DNA from: Flavobacteriales bacterium
Lineage (GTDB): Bacteria > Bacteroidota > Bacteroidia > Flavobacteriales > CAJXXR01
Reading direction: 5' to 3'
Length of the DNA stretch: 62,772 nt
Assembly: GCA_025210805.1 (NCBI GenBank)
Contig: JAOAQX010000012.1
Span: forward strand, 1-62,772
The notes below the pieces were generated by a model, which was not told the origin of the DNA, ran no database searches, and worked only from the letters and a program-made list of their open reading frames with translations. Numbering within the stretch: the first letter of the stretch is position 1; each line of letters begins with the position of its first letter. Positions 18,819 to 38,545 of the stretch are shown here, piece after piece. A program made the translations under genes and the position numbers.

Positions 18819-20027
18819 ATGAAAACCACTTATATCATAGATGCCATAAGAACACCAATTGGAAATTTTGGAGGAACACTTTCAAAGGTGAGAGTCGATG
18901 ATTTGGGAGCTTTGGTAATCAAAGAGCTTATCAAAAGAAACCCAAGTATCGATACCGAAAAAATAGGAGATGTAATTATGGGTTGTGCGAACCAAGCAGG
19001 AGAAGATAACCGCAATGTAGCACGTATGTCCGCTCTTATGGCTGGCTTACCAATTTCTGTTCCTGGTGAGACCATTAATAGACTTTGCTCTTCGGGAATG
19101 GCTTCTGTTATCAATGGTCATAGAATGATTGCCATGGATGATGCCGAAATGGTGATTGCCGGTGGAATGGAGAATATGACTCGTGGTCCTTGGGTGATTT
19201 CTAAGGTTTCAAAACCTTTTGGGCGTGATGCTCAAATGCATGATTCTAGTTTTGGATGGCGTTTTACCAATCCTAAATTACACAATATGTATGGTTCTGA
19301 CGGAATGGGGGTAACTGCTGAAAACTTGGCAGAAATGTATAATTTATCTCGTGAAGATCAAGATCTTTTTGCATACAAAACTCAGATGAAAGCTACGAAA
19401 GCTAGAGAAAATGGGCGATTGGCAGAAGAAATTGTACCTGTAGAAATTCCACAAAGAAAAAAAGATCCAATTATTTTTGATCAAGATGAGTTTATTAGAC
19501 CAACAACCACAACAGAAATATTGGCAAAACTAAGACCTGCATTCAAAAAAGAGGGAGGAACGGTTACTGCCGGAAATGCCTCTGGTTTAAATGACGGTGC
19601 AGCAGCCATGCTGTTAGCTTCAGAAGAAGCTGTAGAAAAATATGGACTAAAACCAAAAGCTAAAATCATCGCCTCGGCAGTAGTGGGAGTTGAACCAAGA
19701 ATTATGGGAATAGGTCCTGTAAAAGCCTCTCTTAAAGCTTTAGAAAAAGCAGGATTAAGTCTAGAAGATATGGATATCATTGAGCTTAATGAAGCCTTTG
19801 CTGCACAGTCTTTAGCATGTATTAGAGAATTTGGATTAGCAGATGATGATCCCAGAATTAACCCAAATGGTGGAGCAATTGCTTTAGGGCATCCATTAGG
19901 TGTTTCAGGAACAAGAATTCTTCAAACTGCTGCGATAGAATTAGAAAAACAAAACAAAAAATATGCACTTTGTACGATGTGTATAGGAGTAGGACAAGGA
20001 TATGCAACCATTATAGAGAGAGTATAA
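18819..20027 (+). CDS. paaJ: Acetyl-CoA C-acyltransferase (thiolase, PaaJ/PcaF type)
   Basis: This thiolase cleaves a 3-oxoacyl-CoA with CoA. It shows the nucleophilic Cys90 in INRLCSSGMAS, the catalytic His in GGAIALGHPLGVSG and the second Cys in TMCIGVGQG. The length is 402 aa from ATG 18819. An upstream in-frame ATG at 18741 lies against the end of repeat element B and gives a non-homologous leader, so I reject it. The paaY gene overlaps it at TAATG, and paaZ is 1.7 kb away on the other strand. A role as 3-oxoadipyl-CoA/3-oxo-5,6-dehydrosuberyl-CoA thiolase in phenylacetate breakdown is therefore likely, but a general fatty-acid thiolase cannot be excluded. Confidence 0.85.
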   Translation: MKTTYIIDAIRTPIGNFGGTLSKVRVDDLGALVIKELIKRNPSIDTEKIGDVIMGCANQAGEDNRNVARMSALMAGLPISVPGETINRLCSSGMASVINGHRMIAMDDAEMVIAGGMENMTRGPWVISKVSKPFGRDAQMHDSSFGWRFTNPKLHNMYGSDGMGVTAENLAEMYNLSREDQDLFAYKTQMKATKARENGRLAEEIVPVEIPQRKKDPIIFDQDEFIRPTTTTEILAKLRPAFKKEGGTVTAGNASGLNDGAAAMLLASEEAVEKYGLKPKAKIIASAVVGVEPRIMGIGPVKASLKALEKAGLSLEDMDIIELNEAFAAQSLACIREFGLADDDPRINPNGGAIALGHPLGVSGTRILQTAAIELEKQNKKYALCTMCIGVGQGYATIIERV

Positions 20028-31567: not shown

Positions 31568-34250
31568 ATGAGAAAGTTTTTTAAAGCATTTGGAGGAGTT
31601 GTGGCTATATCTGCAACACTCTTTTTTCTTCAAAGTTCTGATGAAAACTTGGTCGCTGAGAACCAAGAGTATTACAAGCAACACCCTCCAATTCCCACTG
31701 AATTTTGGGTGCAAAAAATTAAAACACCTCCCGAAGTTGTAGGGGGGGGGAGAGCACTCCATAGTTCTTTCTGTAGCCTTCGAGCATGATAATCCACTTC
31801 CGCAAATGATACAATTATATGGAAATGATGGAAGTGAATTGGTTCAGTTAAAAGATGATGGAGTTAAGCCAGACAAAAGGGAAGCAGACGGAATTTATTC
31901 TGTTGTATTGCCACAGAGTCCTTCTTCTTTTATTGATCAAATTACGGAACGAGTAAGTTTTGTGAATAATCAAGGGCATATTATTAAATACACAGGGCAT
32001 TCTGGTGAGATGTTGACCAATGAAAGACTTCCTCGTTTTGATTTTCGTGGATTTAACATGTTCCAGAAAGTAAGTTTACACTCTTCTCTTTTGGATGTGC
32101 TAACAGCTTGTCAAGACGGAACAGACATTGCTAAAGAAAAATCCCTTCTGATTACAGAGTTAAAAGTTGTTGAAGATCCTGCAAGAACCTATAATGTGGT
32201 AACAGGTACAGGTGCTCCACAAGGTGCATGGACATTTGGGCAGATGATGAAAAATATTGCAGGAGGTTTTGCTGATGAAGCCAATCCTACACCAGCTGAA
32301 ATTACTAAAGTAAGAGAGTGTATTAAAAGTTGGATAAAAAGTATTGGTTCTCTTAATAATTCGTCAACATTAACGAATGCCACTTATGCTCATATAGTTG
32401 GGCCTTGGATAAAAAAGGCTAATATTTTTAAAAATTATCATATTACTAATGCTTCTGGTGCTTGGGAGGCTCAATGGGATAGTTTTATAACCAAAGATGA
32501 TATTAATGCATTATTAGCCAATGCACCCTTTAAGCTTACGGCAATTGTTAATAGATTAGATTTGCGAGAAAATATGGGCTATTCGAACAGTCCAGTATCT
32601 AATGCAGGGGAAACTCGATTTATCTTTTCATTAGTGCAGACTCTAGATCATCAACCCTTTAAAGCGAGTTTCAACAGTAGTATGAACATCAGCTCAAATA
32701 AAGGTAAACCGCCTTATCAAGAAGATAATAACTGGAATAATGATGTGTTTCAGGCTGAAGATTGGAGAGGTCTAAATGTTATTTTGGAATATAAAAACCC
32801 TTTTGCAAATAGATGCGCAATAAAAGATTTCGCAATCGATTGGAAAAATTTATCAAGTTATACATGGGATCCCACTGATGTCCAGAATGGACTACAAAAG
32901 TATTTGGAAGAATTACAAAGCATTACTGATCAAGTGACGGCTAGAAATGTGATGCCTAATAGAACAAATGGAAGTGCTATTTCTCAAGTGCGTACAAATG
33001 ATAGGTTATTAGGTGATTTTGTTCTAAATTTTTGGGGTCACCATAAGTGGAAGTTAAGACAGTTTGAACTAAATAATAATGGTTATTTGGTAAAAACAAA
33101 ATTAACGAATATGCCTCTGCAATATGATCAACATCCACATGCTATTGCTCAAGGATATAGTAAAAACTATGTTAATTTTCCTAGAAACAGTGTGATAAAA
33201 CCATCTGAAGAAGGCTTTTTAGGAACTTTTTCTGAAGATCATTCTTCTAAGGTAATTGTGGATTGGATTTACGGATTGAACGGAAATACTTCCCATTTGA
33301 CTTCTGTAAAATTTGGTAACCATAGTTTACCTAGTCATTTATTACCTCTTGAAGGAGAAATGAAGCAAGAACTAGGAACTTATTATGGGATAAATTATTG
33401 GGCTCATGATTTTCCTAACAATATATACGATAATGATAACTATAACGGAGCGTCTTCTCTTTCTACTAAGAGAGTAAGGAGGCAGCTGTCTCTCAATTCA
33501 TGTATTGGCTGTCATGGTGCAGAAACCAAAACAACTTTTACAATGATTAAACCACGTGGATATGGTGAGCCAGCTATTTATTGGGGACCAACTCCAAGTG
33601 TAGTTGATGGGCCTGGGCATACAGATACTAGAGAGGAAGGGGGTAATCAATTTGGTGTTATTGTAAACACCCATAGAGGAGAGACACACGATCCTGATCA
33701 CTTTACTGCTGTTCAAAATAGTGTAGAAACAGTACCAACTTATCCTGCGGATTTCTATAGCTCTAATAAAAAAATACCAGTAGTTGCTCCTTTTTTAACT
33801 GGAAGAAATTATAGAGGGAGTAATTATCCATTAGAACGAAGATATGATGATGATAAAGAATTTTACTATCAAAATGATAAAGAGAACTCAGAGGATGAGA
33901 ATGGAAATTTATTACCAATAAGTATAGATGATAAATCAACTAATGGGCTTTTTTATGTAAACGACCCATCAAATGAATATAATACTGAGGAAAATTTCCA
34001 CACGAATTATGTCCATTACCGTGATAATCCAATATGGGGAGGAAGTGACCAACGTATATTTCCTCAATATCACTATGACCGACCTGGTTTTAATGATTTA
34101 GATAGGCGTATGAAGCATCTTTGTAGATTAGCAATTTGTACACAATGTTCTTTCAGTACGCTGTCTGCAAGTGATCCTTGTAGTCCAATTTCTGTATTAC
34201 AAGTGGCAGAAGCAATAAAACATGTTCCACTTCCACAAAGTGGACACTAA
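31568..34250 (+). pseudogene. Secreted single-CxxCH protein, frameshifted at a G9 run
   Basis: Two frames belong to one gene. The first (31568-31789) has a signal peptide-like start (FFKAFGGVVAISATLFFLQ) and is knocked out of frame at the run of nine G at 31742-31750. With eight G it continues as VGGGEHSIVLSVAFEHDNPL into the long frame (ATG 31806 is internal), giving about 893 aa. The joined N-terminus resembles a choice-of-anchor X-type domain (LKDDGVKPDKREADGIYS). Near residue 655 is one c-type heme motif, SCIGCHGAE (CxxCH). The C-terminus holds CTQC. The rest is unrecognised. It may be a sequencing error, a true frameshift or a slippage switch. The gene ends 11 bases before the next. Confidence 0.75.
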
Positions 34251-34261
34251 ACGCTCTTATT

Positions 34262-35971
34262 ATGAGGAATATAAAATACAAGTATTATTTTATTTATATA
34301 CTGTTATTTCCATTTTTCGCTTTTTCTCAATCTTATGATTGGGAAAAAGTAAGCTTGTTAGCTTCACCGCAAACTGAAGCGAATTATTGGGATTCAGATT
34401 CAGATGATGACGGAAATATTTATGTGGTAAACAATTTTTTTCGTCAAGGAAATCTTTTAACTCAAAAGTATGGAGGTTACTTTAGAAACAATATTTATCT
34501 AAAAAAGTATGATGCCGAGTTTAACCTCATTTGGGAGAAAGAAATTGCTCATTCTTTAGAATATAAAGATACAGAAGTTTTTCTCACAACATTGAAGGTT
34601 CAAAATGGTCGAGTTTATTTGAAAATACAATCCAAAGACTCAATTGTCATTCAAGGTGTATTGCATAGTGTGATTTGTGATTATGATGAATATTGCAATA
34701 AAAGTTTTGAAATTGAATTCGATTTAGAGGGATTTTCTAATGAAATTTTAAGAGCAAAAGGACCTGCGAACTATGATGTTGTTTCTAATCATTCAGACTC
34801 AACATCCTTACTTTCCGTGAGAGTAAAAACACCACTGTCTAGCTTTAACCAACCCGAAGATTCTAGTTTTGTTGTTTTTAAGGGAGATACTTTATGGACT
34901 CCGAAAGCAATAAATTACCTCATGAAATATAACAGTTTAAATGACAGTTTATTATGGAGGTATTCCACTTCTTGGATAAATGAAATAGTGATGGATAAAG
35001 ATGGAAATAGTTATCTTTATGAAGTTGAATCTGCTTGGGGTTGGCAAAATTTACGGAAAGTAGATAAAAATGGTAATACACTTTGGATACAGAAAATTAG
35101 AGCAGAAGATCATCCTGTTCAATTACAAAACCTTGTGAATTACACAGCATCTCATATCTCCAAAAGTGGAGATATTGTAAGTACGTATAGATTTCGTAAT
35201 CCAAATGGCTCAGGTATTCCCGGAGGTAATGGTTATCGCGTAATACTCTTTGATGGATTTAATTACAGGACTTTAACAGGGATAGGTGATGAGAATTATA
35301 TAATCGTTGTTTATAAGTCTGATGGTTCTTTCAAATGGGCTAAAATGTCGCAAAGTGAAGGCTATGAAGGGTTATCAGCTATAGAAAGTGATGAAAATGG
35401 AAATACGTTTTTTGCAGGCTACCATTATCATGAGATTTTAGAGGATGAAGACACTATTGTAAATATTGATTATGAGAACGGCAGTGAAATATTATTGATT
35501 TCTTACGATTCCTTAGGTAATTATCTATGGCATAAGTCTGAAGGCGGAACGGGTTTTGATAAAGCAAGTAATTTATTCCGTCATTCAGATGGGGCAATGA
35601 TTTTAGTTGGAGGAGTTCGGTCAAATCCTTGTATTTTCGGGAATATTGAAACAGAACATTCGGGAGGAACAAAGACAGTGTTTGCCAAACTCAAAAAAAT
35701 CCCTTTAAGTGTACCAATTTTAGAGAATAACATCAACTTGAGTATCTATCCCAATCCTACGGAGGGATTGCTATATCTGTCATTTATGGAAGAAGATAGC
35801 TATGATGTATCGGTATTTAATAGTTTAGGGGAGGAGTTGATACAAAAGAGGGTTCAAGGTAATGACTCACAGCTGGATTTATCTACTTTAAGTACTGGAT
35901 CCTATTTTGTAGTAGTAAAAAATACTCAAAATATTCGGGCAAGTCAGCAAGTTATAATAACATATAATTAG
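34262..35971 (+). CDS. T9SS secreted propeller-like protein, tandem copy 1
   Basis: The signal peptide ends FPFFAFSQ and is followed by SYDWEKV. The body has repeated strands such as NIYLKKYDAEFNLIWEKEI, NGNTLWIQKI and IIVVYKSDGSFKWAKM, ending in ISYDSLGNYLWHKSEGG. This is the pattern of a beta-propeller of the SBBP or delta-60 kind. The last ~80 residues are a T9SS sorting domain (LSIYPNPTEGLLYLSF, VFNSLGEELIQKR, TGSYFVVVKN). It is the first of a tandem pair with the gene at 35982; the gap is 10 bp and the two probably form one transcript. Copy number, not function, is what the sequence shows. Confidence 0.75.
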   Translation: MRNIKYKYYFIYILLFPFFAFSQSYDWEKVSLLASPQTEANYWDSDSDDDGNIYVVNNFFRQGNLLTQKYGGYFRNNIYLKKYDAEFNLIWEKEIAHSLEYKDTEVFLTTLKVQNGRVYLKIQSKDSIVIQGVLHSVICDYDEYCNKSFEIEFDLEGFSNEILRAKGPANYDVVSNHSDSTSLLSVRVKTPLSSFNQPEDSSFVVFKGDTLWTPKAINYLMKYNSLNDSLLWRYSTSWINEIVMDKDGNSYLYEVESAWGWQNLRKVDKNGNTLWIQKIRAEDHPVQLQNLVNYTASHISKSGDIVSTYRFRNPNGSGIPGGNGYRVILFDGFNYRTLTGIGDENYIIVVYKSDGSFKWAKMSQSEGYEGLSAIESDENGNTFFAGYHYHEILEDEDTIVNIDYENGSEILLISYDSLGNYLWHKSEGGTGFDKASNLFRHSDGAMILVGGVRSNPCIFGNIETEHSGGTKTVFAKLKKIPLSVPILENNINLSIYPNPTEGLLYLSFMEEDSYDVSVFNSLGEELIQKRVQGNDSQLDLSTLSTGSYFVVVKNTQNIRASQQVIITYN

Positions 35972-35981
35972 GGAACAAGCT

Positions 35982-37670
35982 ATGAAAGTACAAAAAAAAA
36001 TATTTTGTTTTGCTCTTTTACTCACGCTTCCATTTTTCGCTTTTTCTCAATCTTATGATTGGGAAAAAGTGGAAATTATTGAAATTGCTCAAAAAACATT
36101 TTCTCAATCCTATTCTGCAATGGATGAAGATGGTAATTTCTATACGAGTGATAATGCGAGTTATGCTGGAGATTTAAATTCCTGGACTGATGGCGATTAT
36201 CAAAAGAATAATATTTTTATTCGGAAATATGATTCAGAATTTAATTTGATTTGGACAAAAAAAATTGCCAATTCTATTCCTTACAAAACAAATACTTCTA
36301 GACCTACAGCAAGTATTTGGTATGATCAAGGTCTTCTAAAAGTATTCATTACCATTCGTGATTCAATGTATGTAAATAATCAACTTTATAAAACAAATTG
36401 TTTTGATGATGCGTATTGTTGGAAGAAAGTGGAGTTGCAATATGATAAAAGTGGAAATTTGTTGAATACAATCTGGGCAGAAGGATCAGCTAATTTTAGC
36501 TTTGAAACAGTTGGAGATGATCATTTCGATTGGTATGGATTAAATATCTCTACGCCTTATGCTGGCTTTAATATTCCAGATACATGTTATTTGAAATTTA
36601 AAGACGATTCACTAACAACTTATCATTATAATTCTTTTCTTCAAAAATATTCTAAAGGAAATGATAGTCTGTTATGGCGAATTCCTGCAATTTCTATTGA
36701 AAGATTGTTAACAGATGGTTTAGGGAATGTTTATGTCTTTGAAACAGTTTCGAGGTGGGGTTGGAGAACCATAAAAAAAATTGGTGCAGATGGCTCTCTT
36801 ATCTGGGAACGAAAAATTATGGCAACTATTTCACCTTCATTAGATTTATTATCTTTAACTAATGCGAAAATAGCGAAGAATGGAGATATCATTACATTAT
36901 ATAAGACATTCTATAATGGAAATGATAGAAGTGTAACACTCTATGATGGGAACAATTATAGTTACTTATCAGGTTTAGGTAAAGAGAATTTTGTTATAGT
37001 TGTATATAAGCCAAATGGAGATAAAAGGTGGGCTAGGATGTCAAAGAGTAGTGGTTATGAAGGTCTAAGTGGAATAGAGAGTGATGAAGATGCTAATGTA
37101 TATTTTACAGGATATCATTATCACCAAATACTGGACGGAAAAGATACAATTGTGCATATTGATTATAACAACGGCTCAGAGATTTTAGTTATATCTTACG
37201 ATTCCTTGGGTAACTACCGCTGGAGTAAATCTGAGGGAGGATCCGGAAAAGACGCTGGAGGTAATATACATTTAGATAGTATGGGGAATATTATTGTTTT
37301 TGGTTCTGTGGGCTCCAATCCTTGTGTTTTTGGAGATATTGAGACCAGTTTTTCTTTAGGTGCTAAAATGTTTTTCGCCAAACTCAAAAAAATCCCTTTA
37401 AGTGTACCAATTTTAGAAAATAACATCAACTTGAGTATCTATCCCAATCCTACGGAGGGATTGCTATATCTGTCATTTATGGAAGAAGATAGCTATGATG
37501 TATCGGTGTTTAATAGTTTAGGGGAGGAGTTGATAAGAAAGCGGTTTCAAGGTAACGACTTACAGCTGGACTTATCTACTTTAAATGCTGGATCCTATTT
37601 TGTAGTAGTAAAAAACTCTCAAAATATTCAGGCAAGTCAGCAAGTTATAATCACATCAAAAAAGAAATAA
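35982..37670 (+). CDS. T9SS secreted propeller-like protein, tandem copy 2
   Basis: The organisation is the same as in copy 1: signal peptide ending LPFFAFSQ, then SYDWEKV, then strands NIFIRKYDSEFNLIWTKKI, LIWERKIM and IVVYKPNGDKRWARM, then the T9SS domain LSIYPNPTEGLLYLSF. The central ~450 residues have diverged a lot from copy 1. By contrast, 43 bases at the signal peptide (36028-36070) are identical to copy 1, and the ~280 bases at the 3' end are almost identical. The next gene starts 2 bases after the stop, so the three genes are an operon. Confidence 0.75.
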   Translation: MKVQKKIFCFALLLTLPFFAFSQSYDWEKVEIIEIAQKTFSQSYSAMDEDGNFYTSDNASYAGDLNSWTDGDYQKNNIFIRKYDSEFNLIWTKKIANSIPYKTNTSRPTASIWYDQGLLKVFITIRDSMYVNNQLYKTNCFDDAYCWKKVELQYDKSGNLLNTIWAEGSANFSFETVGDDHFDWYGLNISTPYAGFNIPDTCYLKFKDDSLTTYHYNSFLQKYSKGNDSLLWRIPAISIERLLTDGLGNVYVFETVSRWGWRTIKKIGADGSLIWERKIMATISPSLDLLSLTNAKIAKNGDIITLYKTFYNGNDRSVTLYDGNNYSYLSGLGKENFVIVVYKPNGDKRWARMSKSSGYEGLSGIESDEDANVYFTGYHYHQILDGKDTIVHIDYNNGSEILVISYDSLGNYRWSKSEGGSGKDAGGNIHLDSMGNIIVFGSVGSNPCVFGDIETSFSLGAKMFFAKLKKIPLSVPILENNINLSIYPNPTEGLLYLSFMEEDSYDVSVFNSLGEELIRKRFQGNDLQLDLSTLNAGSYFVVVKNSQNIQASQQVIITSKKK

Positions 37671-37672
37671 CT

Positions 37673-38545
37673 ATGAAAAAAATATTAGTCACACTATTTA
37701 TTTTAACTGGAACGCCAATGTTGGCTCAGAGTGAATTAGATTTCGCCAAGGAAAAAGCGTATATTCCTCAGACCAATTATTTTCAGACAGCAAGTTTTCA
37801 AGTAGAAGATCGAGCATTTTTAGAAGTATATGGTACGCATCCTAATTCCACCGTAAGATGCTATAGTAAACCTAGTGGAGGAAAAATGCTTCAAGCGGGA
37901 AAGCTTGATAAGAAAGGACATCTACTTTTAGAGTTCGAAGCAGGTGAAGCGCCTTCTTTTGTACTCAATGAAAAGAATCCAGTTTTGGGAGCTTCCGAAG
38001 GTTCAGGTTTTGTACAATACTTAGATCGTATGGATTTTATCATACAGGATGTACTCTTACTAAAAGAGGGCGAAAAGCTACATTTGAGTTTTCAGTCCTT
38101 AACTAATAACGACCACACTGTGATTTACCGATTAATTAGTCATTCTCCAGATGATGGAGAACAACTGATGGAAGCGTTTACACCAAATGAAAATGAAGAT
38201 TGGGATGCGGTAGATTTTGAAATTGATTTAAAGAAAGAAACTACTTATACTTTTGAAATTTATAGTCAAGGAAAACTCCGTTATCAACGAAAACTTTATG
38301 GAGGGGATAAAATCAAAGAATTTGAAGTCTTTCCTAAAGTGACAAGTAGTGTTGTTCATCTCAAATTCATTGAAGCACTCACAAAAACAAATTACACTTT
38401 GATAGATATTTTTGGAAATCAAAGACTAAATGGAAGAGTCAATGAAATGGAAACGCAGATCGAATTAGGGAACTTGACATCTGGAACCTATTTTCTTAAA
38501 CTGGATAAATTTCCCAATGAAGTAATCCAGATAGAAAAAATATAA
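37673..38545 (+). CDS. Small T9SS cargo protein, unknown function
   Basis: The signal peptide MKKILVTLFILTGTPMLAQ is followed by ~200 residues of predicted beta structure (FLEVYGTHPNSTVRCYS, KKGHLLLEFEAGEAPSFVLN, VIYRLISHSPDDGEQLM) that I do not recognise. The last ~75 residues form a degenerate T9SS sorting domain (EVFPKVTSSVVHLKF, YTLIDIFGNQRLNG, SGTYFLKL). It lies at the end of the operon with the two propeller-like paralogues and may act with them, but only the location says so. No terminator is seen before the rimP promoter. Confidence 0.65.
   Translation: MKKILVTLFILTGTPMLAQSELDFAKEKAYIPQTNYFQTASFQVEDRAFLEVYGTHPNSTVRCYSKPSGGKMLQAGKLDKKGHLLLEFEAGEAPSFVLNEKNPVLGASEGSGFVQYLDRMDFIIQDVLLLKEGEKLHLSFQSLTNNDHTVIYRLISHSPDDGEQLMEAFTPNENEDWDAVDFEIDLKKETTYTFEIYSQGKLRYQRKLYGGDKIKEFEVFPKVTSSVVHLKFIEALTKTNYTLIDIFGNQRLNGRVNEMETQIELGNLTSGTYFLKLDKFPNEVIQIEKI

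Follow-up and report, generated by a model that had tools for sequence, protein, structure and literature searches.

Is a long gene with a run of nine G near its start caught in its off state, misread in the assembly, or already lost? This question is raised by a homopolymer in the window, by which we mean the whole stretch of 62,772 nucleotides that was analysed. The earlier note had suggested that the run switches the reading frame of a long secreted protein, and we assessed this suggestion through the frames around the tract, the homologues of the protein, and the behaviour of homopolymers across the genome.

Two reading frames joined at a G9 tract

The letters of the window bear out a run of nine G (G9) at 31742-31750 on the + strand. 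Its length is as read from the assembled contig, and no other G/C run in the 3.12-Mb genome is as long. ORF1 (31568-31789, + strand) has 73 codons, 58 ahead of G9 and 15 from G9 to a TGA, in agreement with the earlier statement that nine G stop the protein after 73 codons. The downstream open frame (31743-34250, + strand) has 835 codons plus TAA; it is bounded 5' by a TAG at 31740-31742 and 3' by the TAA ending at 34250, its first ATG is at 31806, and it has no further stops in its 835 codons. At the tract, codons start at 31742 in ORF1 and at 31743 in the downstream frame, which places the latter at +1 of ORF1. Eight G instead of nine would give a single frame of 58 + 835 = 893 codons, which agrees with the length of about 893 aa proposed before; in this joined gene the tract falls at codon 59 of 893, early in the coding region as had been claimed, and behind an export-signal-like N-terminus. 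The frame is set by the length of a homopolymer inside a coding region, as is expected of a phase-variable locus.

We scored the frames on both sides of the tract for coding potential. The 58 codons of ORF1 before G9 scored 14.1 and its 12 codons after G9 scored -1.4. Over the 18 codons from G9 to ATG 31806 (31752-31805), the downstream frame scored between 0.8 and 1.3; the two remaining frames scored -25 and -22, with two stops in each. Homology to three unbroken proteins starts beside G9, upstream of ATG 31806; the residues aligned there (EHSIVLSVAF with NSHILIMAF) are encoded ahead of that ATG, and by homology the downstream frame is the rest of the same protein. Because homology runs up to the tract, ahead of ATG 31806, ORF1 and the downstream frame are, judged from the sequence, a single gene interrupted only at G9. 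The idea of one long protein split by a G tract is thereby upheld, the homology of the three unbroken proteins reaching the tract and the downstream frame being otherwise intact. We also considered a separate gene starting at ATG 31806 and rejected it: the residues ahead of this ATG are homologous to the relatives, and only the downstream frame is stop-free there. When the 58-aa upstream piece was aligned alone to the homologues, it found no sensible placement; its VQKI resembles LVQKI or LVQRI in the homologues, a short match seen by eye. Its assignment to this gene rests on the coding score and on this by-eye VQKI match.

The encoded protein, its neighbours and its homologues

The N-terminus is hydrophobic and, by eye, resembles an export signal, and the protein is probably exported or secreted. 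Of the earlier description as a long secreted CxxCH protein, the length of about 893 aa stands, and secretion is what the hydrophobic N-terminus would predict. The CxxCH motif is confirmed as a single CIGCH (33501-33515, + strand), invariant in 4/4 sequences (the window protein and three homologues), and is a possible heme-binding site. Pfam at E 0.01 yielded no family and no recognisable cytochrome domain in this protein. Residues 14-36 from ATG 31806 match the model of choice-of-anchor X proteins (NCBIfam NF041940) with 19.2 bits, below the curated cut-off of 25, and the remaining roughly 780 residues matched no named family. A literature search for choice-of-anchor X found no papers. Against solved structures the best match had E 0.082, structure prediction from two sequences gave an unusable model (mean pLDDT 28.3), and an Rfam scan of the window returned no match.

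The G9 gene is the first of a tight four-gene run with successive gaps of 11, 10 and 2 bp, inside which a scan found no terminator-like sites on the + strand. The second gene (34262-35971, + strand, 569 aa) lies 11 bp behind it and carries a T9SS C-terminal sorting domain (PF18962, 48.7 bits, cut-off 27); the third (35982-37670, + strand, 562 aa), after a gap of 10 bp, carries a T9SS sorting domain as well (PF18962, 47.9 bits) and is 53% identical to the second. The fourth (37673-38545, + strand, 290 aa), 2 bp further on, has a T9SS-tail-like end whose PF18962 score of 23.9 bits is below the cut-off of 27. The protein of the G9 gene has no T9SS sorting domain, which is found in two of the genes behind it.

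Next, we searched for homologues. In a relatives set of 60 genomes, the only match was in the window's own genome, where a paralogue with another tract length was looked for and none was found; the genomes searched held no close orthologue and showed no other genome of the same species or genus. A phylum draw of 395 genomes gave one other genome (G177), holding two relatives, and a profile built from three sequences detected a further relative in a class draw of 395 genomes (G666). The same three-sequence profile added three short matches in the phylum draw (E 1.1e-5 to 6.1e-4), all in the choice-of-anchor-X-like part. A first scan of named genomes confirmed no relative; a second scan gave a match in Limnovirga soli, probably the same species as G177, and a match in a Comamonadaceae MAG to residues 36-109 only. 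A phage or plasmid origin was considered and rejected, as phage and plasmid records gave no tblastn match and viral contigs no confirmed relative.

Both G177 relatives (662 aa, and 664 aa from the likely ATG or 715 from the first start) and the G666 relative (607 aa) are unbroken, and at 31, 29 and 31% identity, respectively, they are distant from the window protein. The frame break is absent from all three, as it would not be under conserved recoding. At the G9 site the two G177 genes have mixed codons and the G666 gene has a longest G run of 2; the longest G runs anywhere in the three genes are 4, 4 and 5. The expectation that orthologues keep a G tract at the same codon thus failed for the three homologues found, which are too distant at 29-31% identity to speak for the species, close orthologues being absent from the genomes searched.

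The scarcity of homologues, with one other genome among 395 of the phylum and one more among 395 of the class, suggests that the gene may be dispensable. This would suit a fixed recent loss-of-function indel, in which the gene would be a pseudogene at the beginning of its decay and no switching would take place; the same genome also has a RibD_C-like gene that is broken without any tract. However, no second lesion is seen in 835 codons, and a G9 is slippage-prone in itself. We consider a fixed loss improbable.

Rarity of the tract and accuracy of homopolymers

To describe how unusual a G9 is here, we counted G/C runs across the genome: one reaches nine bases and two reach eight, and a further six and 75 are exactly seven and six bases long, respectively. 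This makes 9, 3 and 1 runs of at least 7, at least 8 and at least 9 bases; a first-order Markov model built on the base composition of the 1.25-Mb sample expects 54.5, 10.9 and 2.2. There is no genome-wide excess of G/C runs, rather a lack; tract enrichment, which is usual though not strictly required where tracts act as switches, is absent. Among 694 ORFs with a length of 200 aa or more, a set to which the G9 tract itself does not belong, exact G6, G7, G8 and G9 occurred 11, 1, 0 and 0 times, against 32.2, 8.0, 2.3 and 0.3 in 60 synonymous shuffles, and the G run in or beside 129 Gly-Gly-Gly sites was never longer than 5. The coding sequence of this genome avoids G runs. By simple arithmetic, extending the drop from G6 to G7 (6/75) to G9 gives about 0.04 expected. 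G9 is unusual for this genome's genes, yet within base composition. Some of the G6 runs sit in a repeated intergenic element with AAGGGGGGAAGGGGGATG and its inverted copy about 100 bp away (for example L027 9930-10262, at the end of G000:C1). Several copies of this element lie near contig ends, and it may break assembly.

A sequencing or assembly error, with a true tract of eight G and an intact gene, was put forward by the earlier note as the plain alternative. We assessed homopolymers in a sample of 61 stretches (1,253,034 bases) containing 1827 tracts (A/T of at least 7, G/C of at least 6), and found that 988/1827 lie in one unbroken coding-like open frame. A tract-centred screen of the 1827 tracts returned 54 rows, three of which we recognised as genes broken at the tract: the G9 gene, L046 (T8) and a dnaX, L071 (A10). 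Translations were read where the downstream frame already scored as coding before its first ATG, plus a few others; the remaining rows, in which an ATG stood next to the tract or the stretch before the ATG scored next to nothing, were taken untranslated as ordinary neighbouring genes. Frame-break screens of this kind are not exhaustive: the first version missed the G9 gene, a hexamer version finds the G9 gene and misses L046, and the tract-centred screen finds both. Since 988/1827 tracts are in frame and only three breaks were recognised, general homopolymer miscalling in the assembly is unlikely.

The two G8 tracts of the genome both lie in frame. Four of the six G7 tracts lie well inside open frames of 281 to 561 codons, a fifth is followed by a stop two codons later, and the sixth (L024, by a contig end) is in no frame longer than 100 codons. 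One in-frame G8 (L004 1501-1508, G000:C32:110297) belongs to an exported-type gene of about 530 aa, whose frame a change in length would break.

On the whole the homopolymers are called reliably, and this makes an error at G9 less likely, though G runs are poorly represented in the control. The few tract breaks recognised in 1.25 Mb and the two in-frame G8 tracts argue against an error, but G9 is the sole tract of its kind. In favour of an error, the G9 gene is otherwise undamaged and is conserved up to the tract; the authors of one survey expect most single breaks validated by homology to be sequencing errors (PMC3711429), and another report describes that databases can give wrong G-tract lengths (PMC9187656). 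We therefore regard a sequencing error as a serious rival, weakened by the largely in-frame homopolymers of the sample and on balance somewhat unlikely.

Among the other breaks, L046 (775-1904, T8 at 1074, G000:C34:51073) has a signal-peptide-like start and a T9SS tail that are out of frame at the T8, and it is a second slippage candidate by its sequence features. Beyond its own genome, only the T9SS tail of its downstream piece was matched, in 1/296 genomes, and the break is without homology support. The RibD_C-like gene (L086 6130-5598, - strand, G000:C4) consists of two overlapping frames with no long homopolymer, and is either a pseudogene or a read error. L071 (10746-8959, - strand, G000:C34, A10 near 19653) is a dnaX whose ATPase ORF and downstream tail lie in different frames on either side of the A10.

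The split dnaX bears on a further explanation, that RNA polymerase or the ribosome slips on G9 and some full-length protein is made. In bacteria, slippage of this kind is best known on runs of A or T, which counts against it here. We rejected ribosomal -1 frameshifting, which would not reach a downstream frame lying at +1 of ORF1; a transcript losing one G would serve. The three unbroken homologues speak against a conserved recoding. On the other side, PMC3711429 describes a two-ORF dnaX with ten As, the type that L071 matches, for which transcriptional slippage was inferred, so the genome does hold a two-ORF gene of this type. Recoding at G9 seems to us highly improbable.

A possible slippage switch and its known counterparts

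The best explanation, to which we give an even chance, is that the window carries an OFF-length allele, reversible in principle, produced by replication slippage at codon 59 of a gene whose product of about 893 aa is probably exported. Strand slippage in replication would have altered the G-tract length by one base. With this one-base offset, translation would stop 15 codons past the tract start and the gene would be OFF; a long stretch past the stop at codon 73 would go untranslated, which could silence the three genes behind. In cells with an in-frame length, the whole protein would be made, and relief of polarity would yield more of the three genes behind. We infer four elements of this account: the presence of all nine G in the DNA itself, a tract length that differs from cell to cell, the action of polarity, and export of the protein. 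Both mutS (925.6 bits, cut-off 641.7) and mutL (494.4 bits, cut-off 180) are present in the genome, so slippage should be held down, which counts against switching at G9.

The proposal of an on/off switch by slippage thus came through in part. It is favoured by a single gene broken only at an early tract, after an export-signal-like start, and placed first in a run with T9SS-type genes; the three homologues without a tract and a genome not enriched in G tracts count against it. A stronger version, in which a selected G-tract contingency switch in a member of the Bacteroidota with mismatch-repair genes would control a CxxCH exported protein together with T9SS-type genes by polarity, appears unlikely. 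We make no claim of selection for switching, given homologues without the tract and no set of G-tract genes.

Known switches in Bacteroidota are mostly DNA inversions. Our full-text literature search, judged by titles and abstract starts, found no Bacteroidota homopolymer on/off switch, which is not proof of absence in print. Variation of tract length in the population would make the locus a case of homopolymer on/off switching within a Bacteroidota lineage; if the T8 of L046 varied too, slippage would amount to a genuine, though small, switch system in Bacteroidota. The G9 gene would need annotating as one 893-aa protein; if the ninth G is a read error, an annotation correction would result and nothing more.

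Three known systems invite comparison. The poly-G/C contingency loci of Campylobacter jejuni share a frame-changing G tract in an AT-rich genome; strain NCTC11168 has 29 loci with tracts of at least 7 (PMC4965091), whereas the 3.12 Mb of the present genome contain 9 runs of this length, of which one coincides with a frame break. The two-ORF dnaX with poly-A slippage likewise has a homopolymer joining two frames of one gene, but there the tract is A10 in an essential gene and is conserved across genera (PMC3711429), whereas the homologues of the G9 gene are unbroken. The third is the sortase-dependent pilus switch of Bifidobacterium breve UCC2003 (bbr_0113, bbr_1889), in which replication slippage sets G-tract length, with polarity on the genes behind (PMC9187656). 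The layout is shared: a G tract separates a short signal-bearing upstream ORF from a long downstream one, the interrupted gene heads a cluster, and polarity on the genes behind is predicted at the G9 locus as well. In B. breve, mixtures of tract lengths were measured and pili were observed with the tract in frame, and further Bifidobacterium strains have equivalents (PMC9187656); the tract here is a G9 and is not kept in distant homologues. By analogy, the G9 locus would work like the B. breve pilus G-tract switch, and would at best be another case of an already known kind of switch.
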